Source: Pedococcus cremeus
Lineage (GTDB): Bacteria; Actinomycetota; Actinomycetes; Actinomycetales; Dermatophilaceae
Reading direction: 5' to 3'
Assembly (NCBI RefSeq): GCF_900111375.1
Contig: NZ_FOHB01000008.1
Span: 207,696-271,695, forward strand
DNA length: 64,000 bases
Part shown: positions 37,151 to 64,000 of the stretch, one piece after another
How the letters are laid out: each line of letters opens with the position of its first letter
How positions within the stretch are numbered: position 1 is the first letter of the stretch
Notes under the pieces: model-generated
Database searches by the model: none
The model's input: only the letters and a program-made list of their open reading frames with translations
Told to the model about the DNA's origin: nothing
Program-made: the position numbers and the translations under genes

Positions 37151-37189
37151 CAGCAGCGCCCCGGACCCTCGTGGTCCGGGGCGCTGCTG
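37151..37189. terminator. 17-bp perfect hairpin after rpfB
   Basis: CAGCAGCGCCCCGGACC pairs perfectly with its complement across a CTCGT loop, 14 bases past the rpfB stop. It separates rpfB from rsmA. Confidence 0.85.
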
Positions 37190-37262
37190 TGTCCTGGCGT
37201 CCTCGCCATCCGCGGCGCTGCCCCGGTCGGGTGCGCTGCGCGCGTCCCCTAGGCTCGCCTCC

Positions 37263-38123: not shown

Positions 38124-38132
38124 GGTGTGCGC

Positions 38133-39068: not shown

Positions 39069-39081
39069 TGGGCCCCTCCTG

Positions 39082-40914: not shown

Positions 40915-40947
40915 CCCAACCCGCCACGACGCCGACGGCGGGTGTCG

Positions 40948-41379
40948 TCAGCCGGTGGGCCGCATGTGCTTCCACGGGAGGTCCAACCGGAAGAGCCGGC
41001 CGGTCACCTCGACGGGCTTGATCTCGACGATGCTGAACTTGGCCGTGGGTACCCAGGGACGGAGCTGCAGATGTTCGGCGTCGTCCGCCTCCTCACCCTG
41101 CAGCTCACGCGCCGTGCCCCTCACGACTACGCTCATTGCCCGTTCGTCGTCGTAGCGGTCGATCTCGAACGCGACGTCCTGGTTCATCGTGATTCCCAGC
41201 AGCTTGCTGCCCTCCGCGGTGCGGAAGACGAGCCGGCCTCGGTGGACGACGTAGTTGATCGGCACGATGTGCACCTCGTTCACGAGGTGAAAAGCCAAGC
41301 GGCCGAACTCCTCCTGGCGCAGGAGCTCCCAGCAGTCGAGCTCGGGCAGCTCCGTCACGACGTCGTGGTTGTTGTCCAT
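40948..41379 (-). CDS. Pyridoxamine 5'-phosphate oxidase family (flavin-binding) protein
   Basis: 143 residues, split-barrel flavoprotein fold: ELLRQEEFGRLAFHLVNEVHIVPINYVVHRGRLVFRT, quoted here by its parts EEFGRLAF, VHIVPINYVV and GRLVFRTAEGSKL, is the typical core. Members bind FMN, F420 or haem; which one is unclear. It converges on the ABC-F gene with 33 bases between. The start at 41379 has GAGG upstream. Confidence 0.85.
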   Translation of the reverse strand: MDNNHDVVTELPELDCWELLRQEEFGRLAFHLVNEVHIVPINYVVHRGRLVFRTAEGSKLLGITMNQDVAFEIDRYDDERAMSVVVRGTARELQGEEADDAEHLQLRPWVPTAKFSIVEIKPVEVTGRLFRLDLPWKHMRPTG

Positions 41380-41716
41380 GAGCCCTCCTCGGCCGCTCTT
41401 CCTGGTGCGCCAAACGTAGGACGGGAGAGGTCGATGCCGGATGGGTCCAAGGACTCAGGACGTTCCCGGTCCTGGCTGTGCGCAGATCTGCGTCTTGACG
41501 GCTCGGAGGGCCTCCGCTAGGCCCGCCGTGACTAACACCTACGTCGTAGGACGCTCTGGGCGGGAAACAGGAGCAACGACGCAAAAGGGATCGTCCTTCT
41601 GCCGGTGTTCCGGCTTCTGGCGCGGCGCTTCACTCGTCCTGCCCACTCCTCCGCCAGTACCAGGGGGCCCAGGGGGGGTACTGAAAGGCAATCTGACCAC
41701 GACAGGAGCAGGAACC
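41380..41716. promoter_or_regulatory. 337-bp region upstream of the first tandem CWB2 gene
   Basis: No gene. It holds two short palindromes, CGCAGATCTGCG at 41481-41492 and CCTACGTCGTAGG at 41538-41550, and a G-rich run near 41675. The promoters of the divergent PPOX gene and the CWB2 gene should both be here. Confidence 0.4.
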
Positions 41717-42832
41717 ATGGGTAAGCACACCCGCCGCGGCTCAATGGCAGCCGCTGCAACCCTCGCAGTCGGCCTCGCATTCGGTGCGGCTGCTGCGACG
41801 GCGGCACCGTCGTCCCCGAACCAGGACGACCCGGACCCGATGACCTGGGTCGCCACGAACGACGGCAACAAGAACCTCTTCCGGGTCGCCGGCACGGACC
41901 GTGTCGTCACGGCCATCAAGCTGATGAACGCCACCTCCAAGCGTTGGGGCCACTCGGTCATCATCGCCCGCAGCGACATCTTCCCCGACGCCCTCGCGGC
42001 TGCGCCCCTCGCGGACGTGCTCGACGCGCCGGTGCTGGTGTCGAAGCCCGGCAGCTCGATCGACAGCCGGGTCCTTGACGCCATCTCGCGTCGTCACTTC
42101 GACAACGTGATCCTCCTCGGTGGCACGGGCGTGTTCACGGAGGCGGCTCGGGCCCAGCTCGAGGGCATGGGGCTCAGCGTCGAGCGCCAGCGCGGCATCG
42201 ACCGCTACGAGACGGCAGTGGGCATCGCCAAGCGGACCGCCCATGAGCTCGCCATGCGCGCTCAGGCAGAGGGCTTCACCTGGAAGAAGACGGTGAACGT
42301 CTACCTGGCCACCGGTCTGGACTTCCCCGACGCGCTGGCCGCCGGTCCGGCTGCTGCGGACAACGACGGCGTCGTCCTCCTCACCGCGGGCACCAAGATG
42401 AACGCCTCGACCTACAACTTCCTCAAGAGGGAGTGGAAGACCCTTCCGGAGTGGGCCAACGGCATCGAGATCCACACCGTGGGTGGCGCGGCCGAGAAGG
42501 CTGCGAAGTCCTCGATCGAGGACATCGCCGACACCAACACCGGTGCCGACCGCTACTCCACCGCCGTCCTCCTGGCCGGCAAGTACACGCACCCCATCAA
42601 GAAGATCGCAGTCGCCAGCGGTGAGAACCACGCTGACGGTGTTGTGGCGGGTGCCTGGATCGCCAACCACGACGGTCCGCTCCTGCTGACCGCGAACGCG
42701 TCGCTGCCCACTGTCGTGAGCAACTACCTGTTCAAGTTCGCGGATGGGAACACCGACGTCGTGGTCGTCGGTGGCACGGGCTCCGTGTCCCGCAACGTCA
42801 GCGCTCAGATCGCGAACCTGTTCCTGCTCTGA
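41717..42832 (+). CDS. Secreted cell-wall-binding-repeat protein, tandem copy 1
   Basis: 371 residues: signal peptide (AAATLAVGLAFGAAAATAA), then three CWB2-type repeats starting NLFRVAGTDRVVTAI, ERQRGIDRYETAV and NTGADRYSTAV, and the ending SRNVSAQIANLFLL. There is no other domain. AGGA precedes ATG 41717. It has exactly the same length as the next gene, which also ends SRNVSAQIANLFLL, so the two are recent tandem duplicates. A hairpin follows each. Expected location is the wall surface; function unknown. Confidence 0.87.
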   Translation: MGKHTRRGSMAAAATLAVGLAFGAAAATAAPSSPNQDDPDPMTWVATNDGNKNLFRVAGTDRVVTAIKLMNATSKRWGHSVIIARSDIFPDALAAAPLADVLDAPVLVSKPGSSIDSRVLDAISRRHFDNVILLGGTGVFTEAARAQLEGMGLSVERQRGIDRYETAVGIAKRTAHELAMRAQAEGFTWKKTVNVYLATGLDFPDALAAGPAAADNDGVVLLTAGTKMNASTYNFLKREWKTLPEWANGIEIHTVGGAAEKAAKSSIEDIADTNTGADRYSTAVLLAGKYTHPIKKIAVASGENHADGVVAGAWIANHDGPLLLTANASLPTVVSNYLFKFADGNTDVVVVGGTGSVSRNVSAQIANLFLL

Positions 42833-43138
42833 CGCCGGCGGCAGGTCCGACCCGCCCTTCGGGGGGAGACTGGTCCTGAATCACCACGGCGAACTGCCCC
42901 CGGGCCTCGGCTCGGGGGCAGTTCGCATGTCTCCTCCGGGCCGGAGATCGTTGCCGTGTCAAGTGTCCGAAGGGTGTGGAACCCGTTCTGTAGAAGGGAC
43001 TTTGGGCCCATGGTGCTACACGGCTGCGGTGGTTACGTGGAGTCGGCCCCCGTTGCCGAGAGGGGGATGACGCAGGGGGCGTCAGCGATCTCGCGGGGTT
43101 CTCAGGGGGCTGGGGAAAGTCAGGACAGGAGTTCAGTC
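42833..43138. other. 306-bp spacer between the tandem CWB2 genes
   Basis: It contains the terminator of copy 1 (42891-42924) and then the presumed promoter of copy 2, so the two genes seem to be transcribed separately. No gene seen. Confidence 0.5.
42891..42924 (+). terminator. Hairpin terminator after CWB2 copy 1
   Basis: 12-bp perfect stem GAACTGCCCCCG / CGGGGGCAGTTC with a 10-base loop, 59 bases past the stop. Confidence 0.75.
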
Positions 43139-44254
43139 ATGAGTACATCCGTGCGTCGCACCACTCTGGCTACAGCGGTGGCGCTCGCTGGAAGCCTCAC
43201 AGTCGGTATGAGTGCCTTCGCAGCACCCTCCACGCCCTACCAGGACGACGCCGACTCCGCTTGGACGCACGTTGCGTCCAACGACGGCAACAAGCACCTG
43301 TACCGGGTCGCCGGCACGGACCGCATTGCCACGGCGATCAAGCTGATGAACGCCACCACCAAGCACTGGAGCGACACCGTCATCATCGCCCGCAGCGACA
43401 ACTTCGCCGACGCCCTGGCCTCCGCTCCGCTGGCCGACGTCAAGGACGCGCCGCTGCTGGTGTCGAAGCCGGGCAGCTCGATCGACAGCCGAGTTCTCGA
43501 CGCGATTGCCCAGCGTCACTTCCACCACGTGATCCTGCTGGGTGGCACGGGTGTCTTCACCGAAGCCGCTCGGGCGCAGCTCGAGGGCATGGGCCTCACG
43601 GTTGACCGCCAGCGTGGCATCGACCGCTACGAGACCGCGGTCGGCATCGCCAAGCGAGTCGCCAACGACCTGGCCATGCGGTACCGCGCCGAGGGCTGGA
43701 CGTTCAAGAAGACCGTCAACGTCTACCTGGCCACCGGCCTCGCGTTCCCGGACGCCATGGGTGCGGGAGCGGCCGCCGCCGACAACGACGGTGTCGTCCT
43801 GCTGACCGCCGGCACGAAGATGAACGCCTCCACCTACAAGTTCCTCAAGAAGGAGTGGAAGACGATCCCGTGGTTCGCCAACGGCATCGAGATCCACACC
43901 GTGGGTGGCGCTGCCGAGAAGGCTGCGAAGTCGTCGATCGAGGACATCGCCGACACCAACACCGGTGCCGACCGCTACGCCACCGCTGTCATGCTGGCCA
44001 ACAAGTTCAAGCACCCGGTGGAGAAGATCGCCGTCGCCAGCGGCGAGACCTACGCCGACGGTGTCACCGCTGGTGCCTGGATCGCCAACCACGACGGTCC
44101 ACTCCTGCTGACGGCCAACGCGTCACTGCCGAAGGTTGTGGCGAACTACCTGTTCAAGTTCGCTGACGGCGGCACCGACGTCGTGGTCGTCGGTGGACCG
44201 GGCTCCGTGTCCCGCAACGTCAGCGCTCAGATCGCGAACTTGTTCCTGCTCTGA
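43139..44254 (+). CDS. Secreted cell-wall-binding-repeat protein, tandem copy 2
   Basis: 371 residues, paralogue of the preceding gene. It has a signal peptide (TAVALAGSLTVGMSAFAAP) and three repeats beginning HLYRVAGTDRIATAI, DRQRGIDRYETAV and NTGADRYATAV. By eye roughly three quarters of residues match copy 1, with the signal peptide least conserved. AGGAG lies seven bases before ATG 43139. Short Lys/Trp substitutions in the second repeat (WKKTVNVYLATG against FKKTVNVYLATG) show the same framework. Confidence 0.87.
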   Translation: MSTSVRRTTLATAVALAGSLTVGMSAFAAPSTPYQDDADSAWTHVASNDGNKHLYRVAGTDRIATAIKLMNATTKHWSDTVIIARSDNFADALASAPLADVKDAPLLVSKPGSSIDSRVLDAIAQRHFHHVILLGGTGVFTEAARAQLEGMGLTVDRQRGIDRYETAVGIAKRVANDLAMRYRAEGWTFKKTVNVYLATGLAFPDAMGAGAAAADNDGVVLLTAGTKMNASTYKFLKKEWKTIPWFANGIEIHTVGGAAEKAAKSSIEDIADTNTGADRYATAVMLANKFKHPVEKIAVASGETYADGVTAGAWIANHDGPLLLTANASLPKVVANYLFKFADGGTDVVVVGGPGSVSRNVSAQIANLFLL

Positions 44255-44378
44255 TCGCTGATGCCGCACGGCCCCGCCCCTGAGAGGGAGTGAGTGCCCA
44301 GCACGGCCCGTCGCCTCCGGGTTCGCCCGGGGGCGACGGTGTTCGTCTGTGCGGCAAAGCTGTTCGGTGCGCCGGTGG

Positions 44379-44876
44379 TCAGCTCTCGAAGGGGGAGAGC
44401 AGCCTGCGCAGGAGGTTGGCCAGCTCGGTGCGCTGGCGCGCGGGCAGCTCGGCGAGCAGCTGGCGCTCCCGCTCGAGCAGGTCCGCCATCGCGGCGTCCA
44501 CCGTCCGTTTGCCGCTCTCGGTGAGCTCGACGATCACCCCGCGCCGGTCGTGGGGGTCGGGGCTGCGCTCGACGAGGCCGCGTCGCTCGAGGCGGTCGAC
44601 CCGGTTGGTCATCGTGCCGCTGGTGACCAGGGTCTCCTGCACGAGCTGTCCCGGCGAGAGCCGGTACGGGTCACCGGCGCGCCGCAGCGCGGACAGCACG
44701 TCGAACTCCCAGCTCTCCAGGGAGTGACGGGCGAACGCCTGGGCGCGGTCGAGGTCCAGCCGGCGGGCCAGGCGCGAGATGCGCGAGAGCACGTGCAGGG
44801 GCGCGACGTCGAGGTCGGGGCGCTCGCGCTTCCAGGCCTCGACGATCCGGTCGACGTCGTCGGGAGGCGTGCTCAT
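44379..44876 (-). CDS. MarR-family transcriptional regulator
   Basis: 165 residues. Winged helix: LSPGQLVQETLVTSGTMTNRVDRLERRGL followed by the wing SPDPHDRRGVIVELT (quoted as GTMTNRVDRLERRGLV and DRRGVIVELT). It is divergent from the trans-aconitate methyltransferase gene with 60 bases between. A perfect palindrome sits in that gap, so it probably represses itself and its neighbour. ATG 44876 preferred; 44885 possible. Its frame stays open far upstream without coding character. Confidence 0.88.
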   Translation of the reverse strand: MSTPPDDVDRIVEAWKRERPDLDVAPLHVLSRISRLARRLDLDRAQAFARHSLESWEFDVLSALRRAGDPYRLSPGQLVQETLVTSGTMTNRVDRLERRGLVERSPDPHDRRGVIVELTESGKRTVDAAMADLLERERQLLAELPARQRTELANLLRRLLSPFES

Positions 44877-44901
44877 GGTTGGCATCGTACTCGCCGTCAA
44901 G

Positions 44902-44919
44902 TATCTTGATGTCAAGATA
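44902..44919. promoter_or_regulatory. MarR operator between marR-like gene and tam
   Basis: TATCTTGATGTCAAGATA: 8-bp perfect arms around a 2-base centre. A second overlapping inverted repeat TCAAG-TAT-CTTGA lies at 44897-44909. The size and symmetry fit a MarR-family dimer site. It covers the promoter region of both divergent genes. Confidence 0.75.
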
Positions 44920-44936
44920 GTGCGAGAGGAGCTGCT

Positions 44937-45746
44937 GTGAGCACCAGGTGGGACCCCGAGCAGTACGCCCGCTTCGCCGACCATCGTGGTCGCCCGTTCC
45001 GCGACCTCCTGTCGCGCGTGGGGGCGGGGGATCCCGCCCTCGTCGTCGACCTCGGCTGTGGCAACGGTCCGCTGACGATGACGCTGGTCGAGCGCTGGCC
45101 CGGGGCTCGGGTCGTCGGCGTCGACTCCTCGCCGCAGATGTTGGAGTCGGCCCGTGCCGGTGACCCGGACGGGCAGGTGGAGTGGGTGCAGGCCGACCTC
45201 GCCACCTGGGACATCGCCACCCTGGGGGACCGGCCTTCGGTGGTCGTGACCAACGCGACGCTGCAGTGGGTGCCCGGTCACCGCGAGCTCCTCCCTGCCT
45301 GGGTCTCCGCGCTGGAGCCCGGCGGCTGGTTCGCGATGCAGGTGCCGTCGAACTTCGCCGCGCCCTCGCACCAGCTCATGCGAGACGTGGCCGAGCAGCA
45401 CGCCGCGGCGGACCGGCTCCGGCCCGGCCTCGCCCGGGTGGGCGTGGCGGAGCCGGCCGACTACGTGGAGGACCTCAGTGCCCTCGGCTGCGACGTCGAC
45501 GCATGGGAGACCACCTACCAGCACATCCTCGACCCGGAGGGGCTGCAGGAGAGCCCGGTGCTGGAGTGGGTCCGTGGCACGGGCCTGCGGCCGGTGCTCG
45601 ACGCCCTCACCGACGACGCTGAGCGCGAGGCGTTCCTCGCGGAGTACGACGCCCGTCTCCGCGCGGCATACCCCCGCAGGCCCTTCGGGGTCCTGCTGCC
45701 CTTCCGCCGCGTCTTCGCGGTGGCGCACAAGCGTGAAGACGACTGA
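44937..45746 (+). CDS. tam: Trans-aconitate 2-methyltransferase
   Basis: 269 residues. N-terminal WDPEQYARFADHRGRPFRDL is the Tam signature, followed by SAM motif I VVDLGCGNGPLTMTL, and LQWVPGHRELLPAW further on; C-terminal PFRRVFAVA. It methyl-esterifies trans-aconitate, a toxic by-product that inhibits aconitase. GTG 44937 with GAGAGGAGC upstream. It is divergent from the MarR regulator and probably its target. Confidence 0.9.
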   Translation: MSTRWDPEQYARFADHRGRPFRDLLSRVGAGDPALVVDLGCGNGPLTMTLVERWPGARVVGVDSSPQMLESARAGDPDGQVEWVQADLATWDIATLGDRPSVVVTNATLQWVPGHRELLPAWVSALEPGGWFAMQVPSNFAAPSHQLMRDVAEQHAAADRLRPGLARVGVAEPADYVEDLSALGCDVDAWETTYQHILDPEGLQESPVLEWVRGTGLRPVLDALTDDAEREAFLAEYDARLRAAYPRRPFGVLLPFRRVFAVAHKREDD

Positions 45747-45950
45747 GCAGCAACGGCGTTCGCCTCCCTGAGATCGTCCGAAGGAATCCTCCCTTCGCTG
45801 AACGTCCCATGGAACTGAGGACCGTGGTCCGCCCCAGCCGGGACGTTCGGCCCTGAATCCGGCATCGCGCTGACCGAGAAACTGCATATGCATCAAGAGA
45901 TCGCAGTTTCAACCACAGCCGGGGATCCCGGCGGAGCGAAGGACAGAGCA

Positions 45951-46547
45951 ATGCGCAAGACCATGGACAAGCTCGTTTCCTGGACCGGCCTCATCGTGGC
46001 GGTCGTCCTCCTCGTCGCCGGCGGCCTGCTGACCTGGGCCAGCAACTTCGTCGCCGACAACGTCAAGCAGCAGTTCTCAGCCCAGAACATCACGATGCCG
46101 GTGGCGGCAGCCTTCCCCAAGGGCCAGGAGAAGTACCTCGCGCCCTACGCCGGCCAGCCCCTCGAGAACGGCCAGCAGGCCAAGGCTTACGCCGACCACT
46201 ACATCCTGGCTCACATGAACGCCCAGAGCGGTGGCAAGACCTACTCCCAGGTCAGTGGCGAGTTCATGCAGATGGCCAAGGACCCGGCCGCCGACAAGGC
46301 TGAGGTTGCCAAGATGGGCGAACTGCGCCAGACCCTCTTCATGGGCAACACCCTGCGCGGCCTCCTTCTCTACGGCTACGCGTTCGACACCATCGGCCGC
46401 ATCGCCGGCTTCGCCGCCATCGGTGCCTTCGTCGGAGCGGGCCTGCTCTTCGCCCTCAGCATCATGGGCCTGCGGCACGCCGCTCGGGTCCGCGAGGAGT
46501 CGCCGGCCAGCCAGCCTCGGGTGCAGGCCAACCCCGCAACCGCCTGA
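45951..46547 (+). CDS. Two-helix membrane protein of unknown function
   Basis: 198 residues: helix 1 at about 11-34 (GLIVAVVLLVAGGLLTWAS), a periplasmic region of about 110 residues rich in Gln, Lys and Ala, helix 2 near 150-172 (GFAAIGAFVGAGLLFALSI), and a short cytoplasmic tail. GAAGGA precedes ATG 45951. Similar two-helix proteins occur in many actinomycetes without known function. It stands alone, followed by a strong terminator. Confidence 0.7.
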   Translation: MRKTMDKLVSWTGLIVAVVLLVAGGLLTWASNFVADNVKQQFSAQNITMPVAAAFPKGQEKYLAPYAGQPLENGQQAKAYADHYILAHMNAQSGGKTYSQVSGEFMQMAKDPAADKAEVAKMGELRQTLFMGNTLRGLLLYGYAFDTIGRIAGFAAIGAFVGAGLLFALSIMGLRHAARVREESPASQPRVQANPATA

Positions 46548-46564
46548 CAACACCAACCGCCACG

Positions 46565-46599
46565 GAAGCGGCCCCGGGAGATCCTCCCGGGGCCGCTTC
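46565..46599. terminator. 16-bp hairpin terminator
   Basis: GAAGCGGCCCCGGGAG / CTCCCGGGGCCGCTTC around ATC, 18 bases after the stop of the two-helix membrane protein. Confidence 0.85.
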
Positions 46600-46709
46600 A
46601 CGTGCCGGTGCCCGATCCGTATGCCGTGTGGCCGCGTCCCGTTGCGGGCGCGGCGGGCGGCGGGTGCGGGCGGGGCGGGCGGTGATTCAGATCTCGCTGG
46701 CGCCTCGGG

Positions 46710-47366
46710 TCAGGCGCGACCGGAGCGCAGCGTGGGCTTCTTCTCCAGGTTGGCCAAGCCGTTCCACGCGAGGTTGACGAGGTGGGCGGCCACGTCGGCC
46801 TTCTTCATCTTGGGCGAGTCGAGCCACCACTGGCCGGTGAGCGCCACCATGCCGACCAGCATCTGCGCATACAGCGGAGCGGCCTTGGGGTCGAGCTTCC
46901 GGCTCTTGAACTCCGCGGCGAGGATGTGCTCGACCTGGCTGGCCACGTCCGAGATGAGGCTCGCGAACGAGCCGGTCGACTGGCCGGTGGGGCTGTCACG
47001 CACCAGGATGCGGAACCCGTCCTTGGAGCTCTCGATGTAGTCGAGCAGGGCCAGGGCTGCTCGCTCCAGGGTGGTGCGACTGCTCTGGTCGGCCGCGAGG
47101 GCGCCGGTGATCCCCTCGAGGAGGGCCGCGATCTCGCGGTCCACCACGACGGCATACAGGCCCTCCTTGCCGCCGAAGTGCTCGTAGACCACAGGCTTGG
47201 AGACGTTCGCCGTCGAGGCGATCTCCTCGACGGTGGTGCCCTCGAAGCCCTTGTCCGCGAACAGCCTGCGGCCGACCTCGATCAGCTGTTCACGCCTCTG
47301 CTTGCCCGTCATGCGGGCCCGCACGGCCGCCTTGGCCTCCCTCTCGCGCTCAGTCACGCGGCCCAT
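46710..47366 (-). CDS. TetR-family transcriptional regulator
   Basis: About 218 residues. N-terminal helix-turn-helix: RREQLIEVGRRLFADKGF, TTVEEIASTANVSKPVVYEHF and GGKEGLYAVVVDRE. The C-terminal ligand domain contains LALLDYIESSKDGFRILVRD. Several starts are possible (47369, 47366, 47312). It is the last chromosomal gene before the tRNA-Gln island. Its target is not evident. Confidence 0.88.
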   Translation of the reverse strand: MGRVTEREREAKAAVRARMTGKQRREQLIEVGRRLFADKGFEGTTVEEIASTANVSKPVVYEHFGGKEGLYAVVVDREIAALLEGITGALAADQSSRTTLERAALALLDYIESSKDGFRILVRDSPTGQSTGSFASLISDVASQVEHILAAEFKSRKLDPKAAPLYAQMLVGMVALTGQWWLDSPKMKKADVAAHLVNLAWNGLANLEKKPTLRSGRA

Positions 47367-47451
47367 CATGCCCCGGCGCTCGCCCAGGACCGGCATTCCA
47401 TGGCTGGGGCGGCGGTTGGCTACCCTTGCGGCAGTCCTGGTCGCAGGACGT

Positions 47452-47530
47452 TCCCCGGTTGGTCTGCTGGCAGGGCCCGCCTGACTTTGAATCAGGACAA
47501 GCGACGTAGGTTCGATTCCTACCCGGGGAG
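47452..47530 (+). tRNA. tRNA-Gln(TTG)
   Basis: Acceptor stem TCCCCGG / CCGGGGA (7 bp), D arm GGTC/GGCC, anticodon stem CCTGA/TCAGG with loop CTTTGAA giving anticodon TTG, T arm GTAGG-TTCGATT-CCTAC, discriminator G. It is slightly long at 79 bases: two bases between D and anticodon stems and a 9-base variable region. The 3' bases read G-CA-A rather than GCCA. The duplicated copy at 54094 does encode GCCA, so the present 3' half probably came from the integrated element. Confidence 0.75.
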
Positions 47531-47544
47531 CAAAACCCGCAGGT
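47485..47544 (+). repeat. att direct repeat, tRNA-proximal copy
   Basis: 60 bases from the anticodon loop CTTTGAA to AAACCCGCAGGT. Differences from the distal copy: T for C after the loop, A for G in the T loop, A for C in the 3' CCA region. Confidence 0.85.
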
Positions 47545-47726
47545 CAGGGGCTTGGGCCGTCTGGACTCGGTTTCTCGTCCGGCCGGTTTTCCAACGGGTT
47601 TGCCAATACCAGCTGGTCGGAGTCGAAGGGCTGGTCGACCACGGCGGCGAAGATCTGGGCCACCTCGACCGCCTGGTCGCGGAGCACGTGGGCGTAGACC
47701 CGCAGGGTGAGCGCGAGTTGCCTTCG
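47544..47726 (-). pseudogene. Tyrosine integrase C-terminal remnant
   Basis: The last 60 residues of this frame contain RRQLALTLRVYAHVLRD and then QAVEVAQIFAAVVD. The TLRVYAHVLR core places the nucleophilic Tyr as in phage-type tyrosine recombinases. Upstream residues in the same frame are Arg/Pro/Ser-rich and show none of the Arg, His or Arg catalytic boxes, so the enzyme is truncated. It reads away from the island toward the tRNA and its stop overlaps the att repeat, the expected place for an integrase. Probable origin of the island's integration. Confidence 0.65.
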
Positions 47727-47934
47727 CGCGGACACCTGACGAGGCCCAGCTTCTCTCACCGGTGCGCTCGAGGGCCGCACTCCTCGCGGCACGGCCGCGC
47801 TGATCGCGGCAGAAGCGAGCTTTGCGGGAGTGGCTGGTGACGTGGCTCCCCCGCGGGAATACCTAACGCCTCTCGCCTCCTCCCTGAGTCGAGGCGAGAA
47901 TGGGGACCGGAGTGGACGTCGAGGAGGACCCCTG

Positions 47935-48624
47935 ATGAGTGCGCCACCGGCCCAACCACCTGAAGAGGACTCCTCCGGTGCAGCCGGCAAGGCGGCTGAC
48001 TCTCAACTGCTCATCGAGCAGTTTCTGCCAACCTACGACGTCGGGGTCGTGCACGCCGACGTCTTCCGGGCGGCGCCTGCCCAGTGCTACCTGGTCGCCA
48101 GTGAGCTGGATCTCTTTCAGACCCCGTTGATACGGACCCTGATCGGGATCCGGGGACTGCCTCAGCGTGTGGCACGCACCATAAGGGGGAGCGGCCCGCC
48201 TACCACGGTCGAAGCATCCCGGCGTACGTTCCGGTTCAGAGACATGGTTGATCTGGGATGGATCTCGCTCGGCGAGACCCCGGGTGTGGAGCTGGTTCTT
48301 GGCCAGGTGGGCCGCCCATGGAAGGGGGTCGCGGTCTCCACCCACGTACCGACCACGCCAGAGCAGTTCAGGAGCTTCGATGAGCCTGGATTCGCCAAGA
48401 TCGCCACCAGCCTCAGGGTCGATCCCTACGGGAACGGCTCCTCGATCCTGACGATGGAAACACGAGTCGCCATCACCGACGACACCAGCCGCCGCCGGTT
48501 CAGGCGCTACTGGCTGGTCATCGGCCCCTTCAGCTTGCTCATCCGTCGAATGGCGTTGCGCCTACTTGCGACTGAGTTCCGCCGGTCGACTCCTGGCGGG
48601 CCAGACGGTCGCGGAGTCGGGTAG
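47935..48624 (+). CDS. Hypothetical protein, possibly SRPBCC superfamily
   Basis: 229 residues. The stretch QFLPTYDVGVVHADVFRAAPAQCY, given here as LPTYDVGVVHADVF, followed by ELDLFQTPLIRTLIGIRGLP, resembles actinobacterial SRPBCC-like hypothetical proteins. Later parts have FDEPGFAKIATSLRV and TMETRVAITDDTSRRRFRRYW. These suggest a lipid- or ligand-binding helix-grip fold, without a known activity. ATG 47935 has GAGGAGG upstream; the frame extends to 47830. First cargo gene of the tRNA-Gln island. Confidence 0.65.
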   Translation: MSAPPAQPPEEDSSGAAGKAADSQLLIEQFLPTYDVGVVHADVFRAAPAQCYLVASELDLFQTPLIRTLIGIRGLPQRVARTIRGSGPPTTVEASRRTFRFRDMVDLGWISLGETPGVELVLGQVGRPWKGVAVSTHVPTTPEQFRSFDEPGFAKIATSLRVDPYGNGSSILTMETRVAITDDTSRRRFRRYWLVIGPFSLLIRRMALRLLATEFRRSTPGGPDGRGVG

Positions 48625-48707
48625 CCGTCGCCATCATCGGGTTCGCCGTCGCCCCGTTGGCCACAGAGTTCGGGTCGGAATGAGACTGAACGTGTGTCGA
48701 ACGAGTT

Positions 48708-48745
48708 GCGCGCTCATCGGCAGGACCGCGCGGGTCGCGGCATGA
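48708..48745. repeat. Cassette-like imperfect palindrome, copy A
   Basis: 38 bases with nested inverted repeats (CGCTCAT/ATGAGCG and CCGCG/CGCGG). It matches 49651-49688 at 33 of 38 positions. It lies 84 bases after the stop of the SRPBCC-like gene and before the methyltransferase. Confidence 0.65.
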
Positions 48746-48844
48746 GCGAGCGGTTACTCCACGGGAATCCTGTGGTGACTGACCTGCCCCACTGATGTAC
48801 TGGTGCGCCACCTGAGGTTTGCCGAGTTGACGGAGGTAGTCGTC

Positions 48845-49600
48845 GTGACGGGCTATGACGTGCTTGCCGAGGTGTATGAGTGGCTTATCTCGGACGCGAA
48901 GTTGACGCCCGCCGAGTTCGCCGCGGCGTTCGCTGACGTCACCTGTCTCCTTCCGTCGAACGCTCAAGTGCTCGATTGCTCATGCGGTACAGGGCAACTG
49001 GCGGTTGGCCTCGCCGGTCTCGGCATGCAGGTTGTTGCGACCGACGCCAGTGCAGCGATGGTTCGTCGGACTGAGAGGTTGGCTGAGGAAACCGGTGCAT
49101 CGTTCTTGACGGTGCGAGCCGACTGGGAGGAGTTGACCGACCATTTCGGGGACGCCTCCTTCGACATGGTGTTCTGCGTCGGCAACTCGCTGCACCATGC
49201 CGAGGGGGCGAGAGGCAGGGTTGCTGCGCTGGAGTCGATGTCACGACTTCTGCGCCGTGGAGGGCGGTTGGTACTCACCTCCCGCAATTGGGAACTCGTG
49301 AGGTCCAGAGGCTCCCGGCTGGACATCAGTGACCGAATGGTCCGCCGGAATGGCCGCGATGGCCTCGTCATCTATCGCTGGGAAATCGCGCCGCAGTGGG
49401 AGCAGGAACACCGCATTGAGATCGCTGTCGTGCAAGTCGAGGGGGATGGGTCGGTCTTGGTCCGCTCTGAACTGTTGTCGTGCTGGCCGTATCAATACGG
49501 CGAACTCGAATCTGAGTTGCACAGCGTGGGACTACGGGTCGAGAAGAGCACGTTCGACCCGGAGGCTGAGGGGTACGTGGTGGTGGCGACGAAGGAGTAG
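48845..49600 (+). CDS. Class I SAM-dependent methyltransferase
   Basis: 251 residues. N-terminal GYDVLAEVYEWLISDAKL, SAM motif I VLDCSCGTGQLAVGLAGLG, motif II VVATDASAAMVRRTERL, and FDMVFCVGNSLHHAEG with RRGGRLVLTSRNW. A variant Ser replaces Gly in the DxGxGxG loop (DCSCGTG). The substrate is unknown; relatives act on glycine or small molecules. GTG 48845 has GGAGG upstream; the frame is open to 48803. Many codons end in A or T, unlike the flanking chromosome, a sign of transfer. Related palindromes lie on both sides. Confidence 0.85.
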   Translation: MTGYDVLAEVYEWLISDAKLTPAEFAAAFADVTCLLPSNAQVLDCSCGTGQLAVGLAGLGMQVVATDASAAMVRRTERLAEETGASFLTVRADWEELTDHFGDASFDMVFCVGNSLHHAEGARGRVAALESMSRLLRRGGRLVLTSRNWELVRSRGSRLDISDRMVRRNGRDGLVIYRWEIAPQWEQEHRIEIAVVQVEGDGSVLVRSELLSCWPYQYGELESELHSVGLRVEKSTFDPEAEGYVVVATKE

Positions 49601-49650
49601 GCACCGGATGCGTTCCTGACGCACAGGGGGGCGGTGTCACCACCACCGTC

Positions 49651-49688
49651 GCGCGCTCGTCAGCAAGACCGCGCGCATCGCGGCATGA
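49651..49688. repeat. Cassette-like imperfect palindrome, copy B
   Basis: 33/38 identical to copy A, same orientation; inner stem CCGCG/CGCGG conserved, outer stem changed to GTCA/TGAC. It lies 51 bases after the methyltransferase stop. Confidence 0.65.
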
Positions 49689-49758
49689 CGGTGCGTTCAG
49701 CAGTCGATCTTCCGCACCCTTTGAGCCGCGCTCTCGGCGTGCTGGCACGGCCTTGGGC

Positions 49759-50320
49759 TCAGGGATTGTGCTGGGCAGCGTGTGGGATGGCTGCGCCAAG
49801 TGCATCGTTCGCCGTGCGCCAGTTGTTCTCTCCCCAGACCAGAATGGTGGGGAGGCTGTGGTCGCCCGCTTGAGCGTCCCATGGGGTTCGAGCCCTGATC
49901 GTGATGTCCGAGCGGGGCAGCACCGCGTCGTAGCCAAACCAGCCCTGGAACAGGACGGACGCCCAAGTCAGACCGACGTCGGCCTCGCCTATCTGGATGC
50001 GGGTGACCTGTTCGATATCGAACCGCTTGACGACACGACCCCCGTCGGGCAACGAACTGACCATCCTCGACAGCGAACTGCACGCGACACGGCCAGACCA
50101 GCCACGAGGCGGAGTGGAGAAGCCCAATAGGCAGGCCCACAACGGCCGACACTGCCAGTGGCGCGAAGAGGAGAGACCAGTCCCTAGTGTCGAAGGCGCC
50201 CAGAATGCCGACGATGACGCCAATGACGGCTCCCAGCGCCAACGAACGCGGGGTGGGAGCCCACCAGTACCGGCGATCGGCACTCACGACAACGCGACCA
50301 TCTGCGGCACGGGTGGACAC
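49759..50320 (-). pseudogene. Frameshifted membrane protein
   Basis: Reading from 50320, a sensible start (ADRRYWWAPTPRSLALGAVIG, two membrane helices ending SASWLVWPCRVQFAVEDGQFVARR) becomes low-complexity after about residue 93. The sensible continuation, GRVVKRFDIEQVTRIQIGEA to DALGAAIPHAAQHNP, is in the next frame. The switch is at a run of five C on the plus strand (50039-50043), so a single-base indel in that run explains it. Restored, it is about 187 residues: two helices plus a PH-like domain. It is either a true pseudogene or a sequencing error. Confidence 0.65.
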
Positions 50321-50390
50321 CCCGGAAGGCTAAGTGAGGGCAGGGGACTTGATGCGCCATCGCCGGACTCCGCGCTGTCACGGCACGACC

Positions 50391-50424
50391 GGACGGCGGC
50401 AGATCCGGACGTTTGAGATCCGGG
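50391..50424. repeat. Diverged palindromic repeat, copy C
   Basis: GGCGGCAGATCCGGACG and following TTTGAGATCCGGG match copy D at about 24 of 30 positions and resemble the middle of copies A and B (CGGCAGGACCGCGCG). The preceding bases 50369-50390 (CCGCGCTGTCACGGCACGAC) also resemble the right half of copy B. Confidence 0.45.
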
Positions 50425-50455
50425 CTCGTGACCCCAGCTGCAGAAGCCCTGTTAG

Positions 50456-50491
50456 GACGAAGGCCCGAACCGCCAGGTCCGGGCCTTCGTC
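50456..50491 (-). terminator. Terminator of the cupredoxin gene
   Basis: 12-bp perfect stem GACGAAGGCCCG / CGGGCCTTCGTC, 28 bases downstream of the cupredoxin stop. Confidence 0.8.
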
Positions 50492-50518
50492 GTTTGGTGC
50501 GTCAGGACAGCGCAGCTG

Positions 50519-51490
50519 TTAGCGGACGACGGTGACGTCGCCCACCATGCCCATGCCGTCATGGATGGCGCAGATGTAGTGGAACCTGCCGGTCTTGGTG
50601 AAGGTGACGTCGAACGGCTTGCCCGGCTGCAGGACACCGCTGTTCAGATTCCCACCGGCGTAGTGGGTGGGGTCGCCTGATGGCCCGAGGACAGCGGGGA
50701 TGGGAGGCTCCTGGCCGAAGGTCACGGTGTGGGGTGCACCGGGTCCAGCCACGAAGAACCGCACCGTGTGGCCGCGGTGAACCACGACGTGGGAACGGAT
50801 GAACCGCATCACTGCGAACCCCTCGCCCTCGATCCCGACTCGGACGGAGTGGCCGGTGGCTTGGGCGTGCAGGGCCTGGCGCCAGGCGATCAGTCCGTTG
50901 TGGAGCAGGGCCTGGGCATGGTGGTTGCCCACCCGGTCGTAGTCCCGCTGGGTGTACGGGTATGGGGTGCCGGCCGGGCGGACGTGCACCCGGCCCTTCA
51001 TCATGACGCCGTGCACCAGGCAGTAGTACGTGAAGTCGCCCGCGGCCGTGAACCTGAGGCGGTACGAGGTTGCGGGGTTGGTGAACGTGAAGATCGGCTG
51101 TGTGGCCATGATCCCCGAGTTGGTGTAGGCGGTGCCGTTGTAGCTCGAGGGACCCTGGCGCTGTGTCTGCGTCGTGTTGGAGGGGTCGAACGCAGGCAGG
51201 GACGTTCCTGGCTTCAGGAAGGTGACGGTGTGCGGCTCGGCGCTGTTGGACGTCCAATGGACGGTGTCGCCGACGTCGACCCAGATGTTCTTGGGCAGGA
51301 ACGCCATCGCCGTGACGGCCATGTCGGGCGTCTCAGCACCGACGCGCACGTGCCAGGTGTGGTGTCTGTGCCAGGTGGCGTGCTCGGATGTGCTCGCCGA
51401 GGCACTTGAACCGACGGCGACCGGGAGGATGAGGGCAGTGACCGAGATGACGGCCAGGATCAGCCGCCGCAGAAGTGACTTCCCAGGCAT
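50519..51490 (-). CDS. Secreted protein with two cupredoxin (type 1 copper) domains
   Basis: 323 residues: signal peptide (LILAVISVTALILPVAVG), then two plastocyanin-like domains. Domain 1: VGDTVHWTSN, EPHTVTF and YYCLVHGVMMKG, giving His, Cys, His, Met as copper ligands. Domain 2: HRGHTVRFFVAG, APHTVTFGQ and YICAIHDGMGMVG with the same set. Both copper sites look complete. It should be an extracellular or wall-associated copper protein for electron transfer or copper binding. Start 51490 has AGGAG seven bases upstream. Island cargo, next to the sortase/CHRD pair on the same strand. Confidence 0.85.
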   Translation of the reverse strand: MPGKSLLRRLILAVISVTALILPVAVGSSASASTSEHATWHRHHTWHVRVGAETPDMAVTAMAFLPKNIWVDVGDTVHWTSNSAEPHTVTFLKPGTSLPAFDPSNTTQTQRQGPSSYNGTAYTNSGIMATQPIFTFTNPATSYRLRFTAAGDFTYYCLVHGVMMKGRVHVRPAGTPYPYTQRDYDRVGNHHAQALLHNGLIAWRQALHAQATGHSVRVGIEGEGFAVMRFIRSHVVVHRGHTVRFFVAGPGAPHTVTFGQEPPIPAVLGPSGDPTHYAGGNLNSGVLQPGKPFDVTFTKTGRFHYICAIHDGMGMVGDVTVVR

Positions 51491-52172
51491 AAGTGCTCCT
51501 AGAAATGGGGACTGACGGTCGCGGTCGCGGCCGCCTTGGAATGCTCGTGGAGCCCCGCAGCGCGCGCAGTCCAACATCAAGCGTGAGCGGCCCACCCAAG
51601 GTGTGCCTCCTACCGATGGCGCAGTACCCGTTCGAGCCGTCGCCCTGCGAATGCACGGGTCAAGCCCCTGATCGGGGGATGGCGCCCCCCTGCGGTGGCG
51701 TGGCGCATCGTCTGGTCCTCGGCCACGGACAGCGAACAGGCCGAGACGGGGTCCAGCCGCGGGCCCGCACACCCACGAGGCGGGCGGGTCGTGCGGGCAC
51801 GCTGCTGTCTGCGCGGTTGGCACCGTTCCGCTCACCGCGACTGGGGTAGCAGGAATCGTCGTCGCCAGGCGCCGTGGGACGAGCTGTGGAGTCGACAGGT
51901 CGTCGAGGGCCTCCTAGAGGACTCCCCATGGGGACCGTCCCTGACGGCTTGGGCATCACCAGCGGCCAGCAGACGGCGATCTGGAGCGGGCCCCGGCGTC
52001 AGGGGAACCGCCCGAGCCCACCGCCGCGCCGAGCTTGCGGGGGACGACCCCCATGGGCGGCTACCGCTGAGTGGATGGAACGCGTCCGCTCGTCGGCAGA
52101 TCCGTGCGTTTCAGCTCCGGTGACATCGCCACCGCCGGCCTTCGACGCCGCCCGCCAGAGTTCCAAAGAGGG
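51491..52172. other. About 700 bp without a supportable gene, inside the island
   Basis: Open frames exist on both strands, but all are Arg/Pro/Ser-rich with no motif. Contains the promoter region of the cupredoxin gene and the repeat copy D. It may be decayed DNA from an older insertion. Confidence 0.5.
52086..52120. repeat. Diverged palindromic repeat, copy D
   Basis: CCGCTCGTCGGCAGATCCG and following TGCGTTTCAGCTCCGG. The first 23 bases match copy A at 18 positions; the rest matches copy C. Confidence 0.45.
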
Positions 52173-52241
52173 TCACCATCGAGCCACCGACCCGACACGG
52201 CAGCATCCGGCAGCCCCGCGAGTCGGTCAAGCCCTCAGCTC
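52173..52241. repeat. Segment shared with 7024-7093
   Basis: About 80% identical over 70 bases to the segment next to the tRNA-Ala half-site. It lies 50 bases past the sortase stop. Confidence 0.6.
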
Positions 52242-52291
52242 GCGTCGGGCCCAAGTGCAGCCTGGCGTCCCTCCGTGTTGTTGACGCGGTC

Positions 52292-52993
52292 TCAGCTAGT
52301 GAGGTGGGCGTACGCCACGATGTTGTCGACGTAATGGCCTGAAGCGGTGTCGAATGCCCCGCCGCAGGTTATGAGTCGAAGTTCGGCGCGACCTTTGGTG
52401 TCGCCGTAGACCGTGGCCGTCGGGAAGTCCTGTTTGGAGTAGCGGGCCACTCGGTCGACCACGAAACGGGCTGTGTTGCCGTCCTTGCGGGTCACGTCCA
52501 CTGCTGCTCCCTTCTGCAGGGAGCCGAGCCGGTAGAAGACAGCCGGTCCAGATTTGCTGTCCACGTGGGCCCCGATGACGGCGGGCCCGAACTCCCCGGG
52601 CGTAGGACCGTCCGCGTACCACCCGGCACGATCGAAGTCAGTCGGTGCCTCGAGCTTGCCGTGGGGGTCGAGGTGCAGGTCCACGATGCCGCTGGTTCGC
52701 ACCCCTATTGAGGGGATGACCAGGGTCACGGGCGGGCTCGGTTGCAGGATCGGGCCGAACGAGCCCTCCCGTTTCGGGGCCATGGGCTTGGGCCTGGTGG
52801 GCGTTGAAGGAGCGGGCGCGGTATCCGACGCGCGGGGAGGCGCGGAGGTCGCGGCGGCGGCGTTTGGCTGCGGAGGCGCTCCCGGCGTTGTGAATGCTCT
52901 CAGGATCAGGGCGCAGCCGGCGAGGGTCAGCAGCGCAGTGACCACCATGACCAGACGGCCACGGTGGTCACCACTGCTGGGAAGGGAGCGCAT
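52292..52993 (-). CDS. Class F sortase
   Basis: 233 residues: N-terminal anchor helix (VVTALLTLAGCALILRAF), a Pro/Ala-rich linker, then a sortase barrel. Catalytic His is in VIGAHVDSKSGP and Cys in LRLITCGGAFD, the class F TCGG form. The tail after the Cys (ASGHYVDNIVAYAHLTS) contains no Arg, although sortases use an Arg shortly after the Cys. Start shares one base with the CHRD stop (TAATG), so it is translationally coupled to the CHRD protein. It should attach a surface protein; the partner may be the CHRD protein, which lacks a clear LPxTG. Confidence 0.85.
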   Translation of the reverse strand: MRSLPSSGDHRGRLVMVVTALLTLAGCALILRAFTTPGAPPQPNAAAATSAPPRASDTAPAPSTPTRPKPMAPKREGSFGPILQPSPPVTLVIPSIGVRTSGIVDLHLDPHGKLEAPTDFDRAGWYADGPTPGEFGPAVIGAHVDSKSGPAVFYRLGSLQKGAAVDVTRKDGNTARFVVDRVARYSKQDFPTATVYGDTKGRAELRLITCGGAFDTASGHYVDNIVAYAHLTS

Positions 52994-53757
52994 TAGGCGC
53001 GGTTACGAACCTTGCGAGCAGCAACCGTGCCGGTGCCGACGGCCGCGAGCAGCAGGCCGCCCCCGAGCAACATCAGCTGGTTGTCCTGCGAGCCGGACGT
53101 CCCACCGGCGCCGGTGTCCATGCCACCGGCGGGAGCGGCTGCGAGCACTCCGCAGAGGGCCGGGTCGGTGGCCTCGGTGGGCAGCTTGGGGTCGAGATCG
53201 CTCTTGGTGCTGCCGTCGTACTTGCCGTTCTTGTTGTAGTCCACGCCGTGGACGACCACGACGGACTTGCCGTCGACAATGGCCTGGGCAACCGCGTCCG
53301 AGACGTTGATCGAGCCTCGTTCGTAGTTGATCTTCCCGCCGGGGGCGGTGTCGAAGCGGTCGATCGCCAGCCCGCTCTTCGGCGAGGTGTCACCGGTCTT
53401 GGTCAGGGAGACGACGATGTCACCGTACGCCGGGCCGCCCTCACTGGTGTTGAGGTGGTTGTCACCGTTGGCGTCGTCACCGGCGCGGGGGCACTCGTGT
53501 CGCGCCTCGGCGCCGAAGTGGATGTGTGCGGCGTGCGGGTTGTCCGGTAGCAGGCCGGCGGCGGCCATCGTGACGTCGACTCGGTTGCCGTGCACGGTGA
53601 CCATGGCAGTGCCGTTGGCCTGCACGCCGTTGAGCGCGACCGGTCGCAGGGTGGCCATGGTGCCGCCGTCCGCGGCCTGAGCGATGCCCGCTCCCATGAA
53701 CGGGACAAGTGCTGCTGCGCCGAGGGCGATGCCGGCCATCTTGGAGGTGGTGCGCAT
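52993..53757 (-). CDS. CHRD-domain secreted protein with C-terminal membrane anchor
   Basis: 254 residues: signal peptide (MAGIALGAAALVPFMGAGIAQAA), a CHRD-like beta domain with PHAAHIHFGAEARHECP and TSEGGPAYGDIVVSLTKTGD, a Ca-binding-like stretch DYNKNGKYDG, and a C-terminal GGMDTGAGG-SQDNQLMLLGGGLLLAAVG helix ending RKVRNRA. The helix and basic tail look like a sorting signal, but the LPxTG box is not recognisable. AAGGAG precedes ATG 53757. It is the first gene of the pair with the sortase. Confidence 0.8.
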   Translation of the reverse strand: MRTTSKMAGIALGAAALVPFMGAGIAQAADGGTMATLRPVALNGVQANGTAMVTVHGNRVDVTMAAAGLLPDNPHAAHIHFGAEARHECPRAGDDANGDNHLNTSEGGPAYGDIVVSLTKTGDTSPKSGLAIDRFDTAPGGKINYERGSINVSDAVAQAIVDGKSVVVVHGVDYNKNGKYDGSTKSDLDPKLPTEATDPALCGVLAAAPAGGMDTGAGGTSGSQDNQLMLLGGGLLLAAVGTGTVAARKVRNRA

Positions 53758-54093
53758 GCGTGACTCCTTGGTGTGAGCGGCCCTTCGCGGCCGCCGTTCG
53801 GATGTGCCACTAACGCAACGGGATTCGTTTCCACCCGGCGTCCGGATTGGGTCAACCGCCAACATTTGCGGCTTTCGAGCACCAAGCAGGAACCATGACG
53901 TCAAGAAGCTGTGCTGATAGCCGCAGGCGCACTTCATGAGCGGGACACGCGTGCCGTTCGTGCGGCCCAATCGGGTGGGTTGCTGACAGATGCCAACCAG
54001 GGGGTCTGACAGCGTGGACTTCGACGGAAGACGGAACCGACTCCTGAGCACGAAACCTGCCCAACCGTGTGAGCCGAACTACCCCGGAACGAG
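53758..54093. other. 336-bp stretch between CHRD gene and distal att
   Basis: No gene seen. Should hold the CHRD/sortase promoter. A direct repeat CTGACAG occurs at 53982 and 54006. No integrase or excisionase frame is visible at this end of the island. Confidence 0.45.
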
Positions 54094-54153
54094 CTTTGAA
54101 CCAGGACAAGCGACGTAGGTTCGGTTCCTACCCGGGGAGCCAAACCCGCAGGT
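54094..54153 (+). repeat. att direct repeat, distal copy (tRNA-Gln 3' half)
   Basis: 57/60 identical to 47485-47544, same orientation. It ends the tRNA part with GCCA, the normal 3' end. No 5' half of a tRNA precedes it. Confidence 0.85.
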
Positions 54154-54196
54154 GTGGATGCGTGTCGACGGCTGCAACGATGAGCGAGTGGGTGTG

Positions 54197-54760
54197 TCAC
54201 TCGGCTGTCGGCAGGGTGGGGTGGTCGGTGGGGTAGATGCCGATCGCGAACCCGTACACGGTGTCGCCGGACCTCGGCATCCGGTCGAACTCGTCAACCA
54301 GTTCGGCCATCCGGTCCCAGAACTGAGCAGCCTGGTCTTCCGAGATGCGCGCATGCCGGATGAAGCCCCAGAGCTGTCCCTGCTCGAACGCCGTCGCGGA
54401 CTCGCGTGCAGCGACCTCGAAGTCGTTGAAGTCCCGGGGCATCTGTTCGCCAGCGGGTGACGGTTCCGCTGCCACGTAGAACATGCGTGCGGTGCGGCCG
54501 TAGAAGCGTTCCTCGATCGCCCGCACCTTCCGGGTGCGCACCACCTGGAGCAGGCCGTTCCGGGTGAGCACGTCCACGTGGTGCGCGACGGTGCTCTTGG
54601 GCCGCTCGAGCGCAGCAGCGAGCTCGGTGACGGTGGCGGCCCGCTCGTGGAGGAGCTGCAGGATCGTTGTGCGGAGTGGGTGGCCGATGGCCTTCACCTG
54701 GTCCGGCCGGGTGAGCGCCATCCGATCGGCCAGCTCGTAGTCCGGGGGGTTGTCGCCCAT
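54197..54760 (-). CDS. ArsR-type winged-helix regulator
   Basis: 187 residues. Helix-turn-helix near the N-terminus: VKAIGHPLRTTILQLLHERAATV, here quoted as AIGHPLRTTILQLL, then TELAAALERPKSTVAHHVDVLTRNGLL. This is the HTH_20/ArsR type. The C-terminal 100 residues form a separate sensing domain with no Cys-based metal site. ATG 54760. It is divergent from the dienelactone hydrolase gene with 65 bases between, so it likely controls it. Confidence 0.85.
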   Translation of the reverse strand: MGDNPPDYELADRMALTRPDQVKAIGHPLRTTILQLLHERAATVTELAAALERPKSTVAHHVDVLTRNGLLQVVRTRKVRAIEERFYGRTARMFYVAAEPSPAGEQMPRDFNDFEVAARESATAFEQGQLWGFIRHARISEDQAAQFWDRMAELVDEFDRMPRSGDTVYGFAIGIYPTDHPTLPTAE

Positions 54761-54825
54761 GGCAGAACAGACTAGCATCGTCGATCATTCGAAGAAGATG
54801 GATCAATGAGAGGGAAGTCGCTGAC

Positions 54826-55395
54826 ATGGCCGAGGTGCTGCTGTATCACCACATCCAGGGCCTGACCGACGGGGTACGGGCCTTCGCCGACGACCTGCGG
54901 CAGGCCGGGCACACCGTGCACACACCGGACCTGTTCGACGGCCGCACATTCGGCAGCATCGAGGAGGGTTTCGGGTTCGCGCGTGACACGGGGCTCGAGG
55001 CCATCCGGGAGCGCGGCGTCGCCGCGGCCGATGAGCTCGGCCCAGGGCTGGTCTACGCCGGGTTCTCCTTCGGCGTGACGATCGCCCAGCGGCTCGCGCA
55101 GACCCGGCCCGGCGCCCGCGGGGCACTGCTCATGTACTCCTGCATCCCGGTCGCGGAGTTCGGTGAGGCGTGGCCGGAGGGGGTGCCGGTGCAGATCCAC
55201 GGCAAGGAGGGCGACGAGTTCTTCGACGAGGACCTGCCGGCCGCACGCGAGCTCGCCAGTTCCACGGCGGCGGCCGAGCTGTTCGTCTATCCCGGCGACC
55301 AGCACCTCTTCGCCGACTCCTCGCTCGACGCCTATGACCCGGAGGCGTCCGCACTGCTCATGGAACGGGTGCGGGCGTTCCTCGCCTCCGTCTGA
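54826..55395 (+). CDS. Dienelactone-hydrolase family protein
   Basis: 189 residues of alpha/beta-hydrolase fold. The nucleophile elbow is YAGFSFGVTIA, with Ser where classical dienelactone hydrolases have Cys. The catalytic His is in YPGDQHLFADSS, and an Asp-rich stretch KEGDEFFDED precedes it. N-terminal VLLYHHIQGLTDGVRAFAD is the family start. Substrate unknown. It is divergent from the ArsR-type regulator. Confidence 0.88.
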   Translation: MAEVLLYHHIQGLTDGVRAFADDLRQAGHTVHTPDLFDGRTFGSIEEGFGFARDTGLEAIRERGVAAADELGPGLVYAGFSFGVTIAQRLAQTRPGARGALLMYSCIPVAEFGEAWPEGVPVQIHGKEGDEFFDEDLPAARELASSTAAAELFVYPGDQHLFADSSLDAYDPEASALLMERVRAFLASV

Positions 55396-63751: not shown

Positions 63752-63783
63752 GCGGGGCCCGCACCTCCTGGTGCGGGCCCCGC
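63752..63783 (+). terminator. Hairpin terminator after the MFS gene
   Basis: 14-bp perfect stem GCGGGGCCCGCACC / GGTGCGGGCCCCGC around TCCT, 12 bases past the stop. It can also serve the convergent gene. Confidence 0.85.
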
Positions 63784-63810
63784 CGAGGTATGCCGTCCGG
63801 GAGACGGGCG

Positions 63811-64000
63811 TCAGATGGTGGACGTGTCAGACGTGGTGGACGCGGTGGAGTCGCTCGAGGACCCCGTCGACGGGGCCTGCTGCTGCGTGCCCTGGTCGCC
63901 GCCGTGCATGCCGCCCGGGCCGCCGGTGCGGACCTCGATGGTCTTGAGGTCCTTGCTGACCTCGACCCGCACCGGGCTGCCGCTCTTGGTGCCGAAGACG
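63811..64000 (-). CDS. C-terminal part of an unidentified protein
   Basis: Truncated by the window edge; about 62 residues are visible. They read VFGTKSGSPVRVEVSKDLKT, IEVRTGGPGGMHGGDQGTQQQ and then a Ser/Thr-rich tail ending SDTSTI. The low-complexity tail suggests a linker or surface region. No family can be assigned. It converges on the MFS gene. Confidence 0.55.
   Translation of the reverse strand, partial: VFGTKSGSPVRVEVSKDLKTIEVRTGGPGGMHGGDQGTQQQAPSTGSSSDSTASTTSDTSTI

Follow-up and report, generated by a model that had tools for sequence, protein, structure and literature searches.

A candidate integron-like array of gene cassettes in a probable decayed tRNA-Gln island of Pedococcus cremeus

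The window analysed here, a stretch of 64,000 nucleotides of Pedococcus cremeus (contig NZ_FOHB01000008.1; G000:C7:207696-271695), ends on its right at the end of the contig and carries a tRNA-Gln gene followed, 6.6 kb later, by a direct copy of the 3' half of that gene. The DNA between the two copies contains small genes and a recurrent, uniformly oriented site of about 45 bp, and it is this segment, a putative gene-cassette array within what appears to be the remains of an older island, that is the subject of this report. Its landmarks are as follows.

47452-47531, + strand: tRNA-Gln (TTG), the likely integration target (ARAGORN; Rfam tRNA, 41.3 bits)
47485-47544, + strand: first copy of the 60-bp repeat (tRNA 3' half plus 13 nt), attachment-site-like (att-like; 57/60 direct repeat)
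47780-47818, + strand: putative cassette site 1 (23.6 bits)
48711-48751, + strand: putative cassette site 2 (35.4 bits)
49654-49696, + strand: putative cassette site 3 (30.2 bits)
50373-50414, + strand: putative cassette site 4 (29.4 bits with the first model; 25.7 bits for 50381-50412 with the refined model)
52094-52110, + strand: doubtful half-site (9.2 bits, E 0.46 with the first model; no match with the refined model)
54094-54153, + strand: second copy of the 60-bp repeat, att-like (57/60 direct repeat)

The short site was exposed by comparison with G001, the one other species by which the genus was represented, and has a consensus of about CCGCTCATCGGCACGACCG(cgcg)GATCGCGGCATGTCCGGACGTTC. 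All four window sites scoring 20 bits or more are on the + strand, with genes between them running in both directions, and a weak match lies at 62979. On contig C4 of G001, seven sites score 20 bits or more and ten reach 12 bits, again all on the + strand. Alignment of 33 sites placed the invariant letters in the interior, where they form two direct CGGCA halves, with a 3' end that varies. The possibility that the site is a palindrome or hairpin like the attC sites of integrons was considered and dropped because the 33 aligned copies showed no covarying helix; no run of covarying column pairs was found in this alignment, which was itself made on sequence.

Only strong or clustered matches were used to follow the site elsewhere. 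A profile search of 58 genomes found further clusters, one of them large (G039), an exact-pattern scan of genome contigs found 5 stretches, and a class-wide set of 394 genomes included 67 with sites at E ≤ 0.001. Thirty regions chosen for their site matches and totalling 671 kb contained, with the refined model, 133 sites of at least 12 bits; three dinucleotide shuffles of them gave 0, 1 and 0, and reversing the sequence gave 0. All sites were on a single strand in 23 of the 25 regions with two or more, the exceptions being G018 (1 versus 7) and G334, where the strand changes at a recombinase. The window genes face both ways and the sites one way, which counts against terminators or other transcript-linked repeats. 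The same observation bears on an explanation that we consider unlikely, namely that this is an ordinary decayed tRNA-Gln island in which the 45-bp sites are an intergenic repeat, similar to repetitive extragenic palindromes (REP) or miniature inverted-repeat transposable elements (MITE), that has spread between genes. Short repeats are common in intergenic DNA and integration at the tRNA is well supported, as described below, both of which count in its favor, but a single strand in nearly all multi-site regions despite genes in both directions counts against it.

Some arrays are of interest in their own right. A second co-oriented cluster in the P. cremeus genome (C5:129239-131637; L131 8240-10667) has four sites of at least 12 bits and lies near a contig end. 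Dense arrays were seen in Nocardioides sp. URHA0020, with all matches on one strand, and in Pimelobacter simplex 3E, with all but one on one strand, weak matches being counted in both. In G084, 18 site matches follow one another at exact 34-bp steps (L215 11822-12426) in an array beside a recombinase, and could be gene-less units or the product of slippage. The site array of G018:C6 adjoins genes which, from a reading of the open reading frames (ORFs) only, we take to resemble an integrative element of actinomycetes that encodes an integrase of its own.

The four sites of the window delimit three units, with one apparent gene in each.

47830-48624, + strand: gene of unit 1, 264 amino acids, function unassigned (ORF; no family over cut-off)
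48803-49600, + strand: gene of unit 2, predicted class I methyltransferase (Methyltransf_25, 66.3 bits)
49697-50320, - strand: gene of unit 3, encoding a small membrane-type protein that appears to be split between two frames (ORFs 49697-50320 and 49759-50283; no family)

The gene of unit 3 can be read as a single protein only by combining its two overlapping frames, through either a frame change or a sequencing error. The methyltransferase unit was 95.3% identical over 983 bp to a unit of G001 (L095 8835-9810), and compared base by base the similarity begins inside the left site and stops at the right site. Because the same two genomes are only 83.8% identical left of the tRNA, 87.6% in glmU-prs and 76.6% in the M23 gene, the unit probably spread after the species had split. 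Two segments shared by G001 and G018 (78% over 263 bp and 75% over 565 bp) both have the right half-site GCGGCA as their starting point, and one stretch of G001 is 74% identical over 167 bp to part of the array of another family, that of G039. From the second site to the M23 gene, no other gene matched G001 (blastn, E ≤ 1e-4) except a diverged DUF1990 gene found in a different place (68%), and the G001 contig gap may hold more. A shared unit bounded by sites is a second argument against a repeat scattered between genes; on the other side, most units have no close counterpart, and only a few pairs speak for the mobility of single units.

Tyrosine recombinases are present in the array regions of G334, G084 and G432, the latter two being 70% and 54% identical to the G334 enzyme, and G001 has a shortened copy (74%) inside its array. 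From NCBIfam scores and matches to solved structures, these Phage_integrase proteins of about 308 amino acids are predicted to be Xer-like and not IntI: they scored 53 bits for IntI (TIGR02249; cut-off 265) and about 120 bits for XerD/XerC, where the equivalog cut-offs of 330-335 are not reached, and among solved structures XerD (1a0p, 69.8 bits) is the nearest in sequence. The G001 enzyme had been regarded as a passenger since distant homologues had no sites, a view overturned, for the close clade only, by the G334, G084 and G432 loci and by a class-wide search. In that search, 17 of the 394 genomes had matches at E ≤ 1e-60. Thirty recombinase loci, drawn from several searches and forming part of all matches, were examined for a site scoring 12 bits or more no further than 5 kb away; one was present at 10 of 15 loci at least 54% identical to the G334 enzyme and at none of 15 loci below 50%, seven of which reach only about 1.5 kb per side. 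On the class-wide list without the query, 7 of 11 close loci had such a site, that of G106 being a partial site 4 kb off. A left half-site lies directly at the 3' end of the recombinase gene in G432, G133, G334 and G001, and a right half-site past its 5' end in G432 and G133; because of these half-sites, the gene itself appears to occupy the place of a cassette. Relatives of the enzyme are numerous, at least 7352 of 7999 candidates scored having E ≤ 1e-40, and plasmids yielded one record, with a recombinase 42.5% identical. The association of the arrays with one recombinase clade is the third argument against the intergenic repeat.

The layout invites comparison with integrons, whose attC sites end in RYYYAAC...GTTRRRY. 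As in integrons, short co-oriented sites mostly delimit one small gene per unit, units are common to loci of different genera, and some arrays lie beside a tyrosine recombinase and others do not. In contrast to integrons, the recombinase here is apparently Xer-like and the site consists of two conserved direct half-sites; the attC end motifs were not found in the 33 aligned sites. No protein in the 58 genomes reached the IntI cut-off, and neither did any in 14 named control genomes, so that this search had no positive control; matches below the cut-off occurred in all 58 genomes and in all 14 controls. By the features tested, the array is not an integron. We regard it as very improbable that it is nonetheless a true but diverged integron, with an unrecognised IntI and attC sites missed by the tests used. 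The shared layout, including arrays without an integrase like the clusters of attC sites lacking integrases (CALIN) of integrons, and the AAC...GTT at the ends of some copies would fit such an origin, and a review counts Actinobacteriota among the phyla with integrons (PMC8618304). It is opposed by the IntI results and by the position of the conserved letters inside the site, in two direct halves with no helix of covarying columns seen. A survey, in the passage concerned, reports no complete integron in Actinobacteria (PMC9024848), and the relevant passages of two surveys of tyrosine recombinases (PMC8138268, PMC3414803) describe no such arrays. Among the matches listed in our literature search, no title or abstract opening described actinobacterial arrays of this kind, which is not proof of their absence in print. 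XerC and XerD, which act at dif, resemble the array-linked enzyme in size (about 308 amino acids), in the Phage_integrase assignment and in the nearest solved relative, but the enzyme, with a score of 120 bits, falls short of the XerD cut-off of 330 and is tied to multi-site gene arrays.

The array lies within a second, apparently older structure. The preliminary description of this DNA had claimed a tRNA-Gln with a 57/60 direct repeat of its 3' half 6.6 kb on, beginning in the anticodon loop, and ARAGORN, Rfam and repeat comparison agree with it: 47485-47544 and 54094-54153 are identical at 57 of 60 bases with a spacing of 6609 bp, and the repeat begins at tRNA position 34, the anticodon being at 36. 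The tRNA was the sole match in an Rfam scan of 46700-54900. With the tRNA plus 13 nt as query, the whole P. cremeus genome gave two places only, the second at E = 5e-21, and no third copy at E ≤ 0.001; the second match is thus not due to chance, and the repeat is read as the scar of an older island. Directly beside the tRNA is a further feature:

47544-47756, - strand: pseudogene retaining about 55-70 residues of the C-terminal tail of a tyrosine integrase (similarity to a G001 piece at the same place)

Pfam and NCBIfam scans of this tail gave no match; pieces at the same place in relatives were 82% identical over 55 residues (G001), 85% over 27 (G008) and 71% over 28 (G002). The C-terminal piece beside the tRNA comprises 70 residues in the window and 131 in G001.

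Of the 58 genomes, 34 gave a match to the tRNA-Gln, P. cremeus among them. Copies of the tRNA half starting at tRNA position 33-34 were also found in three other genera, 4.2 kb after the tRNA in G016, 23.2 kb after it in G002 and on another contig in G008, in each case 0.3-2.5 kb ahead of glmU; two further copies, in G019 and G035, were weak matches. We take glmU-prs, genes named from our reading of the proteins, to be the next conserved block after tRNA-Gln in relatives, where it begins 0.24 kb (G014), 0.95 kb (G033), 1.8 kb (G023) or 2.4 kb (G015) from the tRNA start. Because the integrase tail adjoins the tRNA and three other genera have a copy of the tRNA half in the tRNA-glmU gap, integration at tRNA-Gln is likely. 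The segment thus resembles tRNA-targeting islands in the direct copy of the tRNA 3' half at its far end, the integrase piece next to the tRNA (a tail only) and the use of the same target in other genera, but differs from them in the reduction of the integrase to its tail, the lack of any known empty site and the inner array of another kind of site.

As for the extent of the island, the proposal that the 6.6 kb form a simple integrated unit was not supported, unlike integration at the tRNA itself. The preliminary description had suggested comparison with an empty site; a search with the ArsR-type protein encoded at 54197-54778, to the right of the repeat, found no empty tRNA-Gln site in 33 other genomes, the genus being represented by one other species, and none joins the tRNA to the right flank of the window. 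ArsR-type relatives more than 50% identical occurred in 2 of the 33 (G012, 76%; G017, 51%), on contigs other than those of their tRNA-Gln. DNA with no match to the core block of relatives extends rightwards from the repeat for 9.8 kb, as far as the contig goes, and includes ArsR-type, dienelactone-hydrolase-type, DUF1990 and M23 genes and a gene that is presumably antiporter-like. In P. cremeus prs is on contig C1 (18.8 kb), and glmU-prs lies at another contig end. Since window positions 63752-64000 match G001:C4 16358-16598 and the end of C1 matches the neighbouring stretch 16635-16998, contigs C7 and C1 are probably neighbours, separated within a single gene by some tens of bases, which would put about 18 kb between tRNA-Gln and glmU. 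With only an integrase tail, no empty site and accessory DNA past the second repeat, a clean mobile island is not supported, and the 6.6 kb may not have entered as a single unit.

These results also bear on the rather unlikely alternative that the tRNA repeat arose by rearrangement or from another, older element, and that the 6.6 kb never entered as one unit. The missing empty site and the accessory DNA going on towards glmU agree with it, and the spot does rearrange, the tRNA being inverted relative to its neighbours in G007 and G026. Against this alternative, G002, G008 and G016 share the tRNA position at which the second copy begins, and the repeat in the window extends to the stop codon of the integrase tail. 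The two inversions, in two genera and relative to tetR and prs, are also an observation about the hotspot in their own right.

A difference from the flanks in gene content and codon use had been claimed and was upheld only in part. The segments between repeats have 62.4-68.1% GC, compared to 70.4% in 30000-47451, and 900-bp windows across 1-45000 average 69.5 ± 2.7% with a minimum of 63.3%; the methyltransferase segment, at 62.4%, is alone clearly low. Right of site 4 are three genes on the other strand:

50519-51490, - strand: cupredoxin-domain protein (Copper-bind, 78.1 bits)
52292-52993, - strand: predicted class F sortase (NF033748, 189.7 bits, cut-off 166)
52993-53760, - strand: CHRD/SodC-like protein with GVDTG sorting signal (NF058571, 34.3 bits, cut-off 29)

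The CHRD match of the last protein (20.9 bits) is under its cut-off of 24.1. The sortase and its GVDTG-bearing neighbour plausibly form a pair of enzyme and substrate. PADLOC gave methyltransferase-type matches only, in 2 of 10 proteins.

On balance, we consider it fairly probable that the segment between tRNA-Gln and the copy of its 3' half is a stranded, integron-like array of gene cassettes, itself part of a decayed tRNA-Gln island. The earlier island reading recognised the integration at the tRNA and overlooked the sites of common orientation and the single genes that separate them. In the mechanism that we envisage, a cassette would consist of a right half-site, a gene and a left half-site; on closure to a circle, the two halves would join as one full site, and an Xer-like tyrosine recombinase of the array-linked clade would then recombine the circle with any full site already in the array. 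Insertion would leave a full site on each side, giving head-to-tail, co-oriented units whatever the direction of the gene, and the 34-bp steps of G084 would be units without a gene. The data show the sequence and shared orientation of the sites, the limits of the unit in one closely shared cassette, related units in the arrays of other genera and the association of a single recombinase clade with arrays; the circle, the crossover point and the role of the enzyme are what we infer. Since the P. cremeus genome has no close relative of the recombinase and only the tail of the tRNA integrase, neither the array nor the island should move by itself now.

Several observations weigh against this interpretation. 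No recombination or circle was seen, and the P. cremeus genome has no relative of the recombinase at E ≤ 1e-30 or 1e-60. Weak site matches (E ≤ 0.5) occurred in 57 of the 58 genomes, which is why only strong or clustered ones were used, and the 30 regions had been picked for their site matches. The right site of the methyltransferase unit differs between the species more than the unit does, and 50415-54093 holds three genes in one stretch with the doubtful half-site only. The G001 array would lie in the same tRNA-glmU gap, although its tRNA is on contig C3 and the array on C4. At the recombinase loci, 5 of the 15 close ones had no site of at least 12 bits, 7 of the 15 distant ones reach only about 1.5 kb per side, and the half-sites flanking the gene score 10-15 bits, several only about 10.

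The textbook example of a device that stockpiles and shuffles single genes is the integron. Whether Actinobacteria have their own cassette-capture system, apart from integrons, in which an Xer-like clade strings single genes head-to-tail at a sequence of two half-sites, we judge to be evenly balanced. If true, such a parallel device would explain the movement of small accessory genes among these bacteria, would provide a directly testable pair of recombinase and site, and would constitute a class of arrays outside what tools built on IntI and attC models are made to find. Judging from the share of genomes of the class with significant sites, the system would not be rare.

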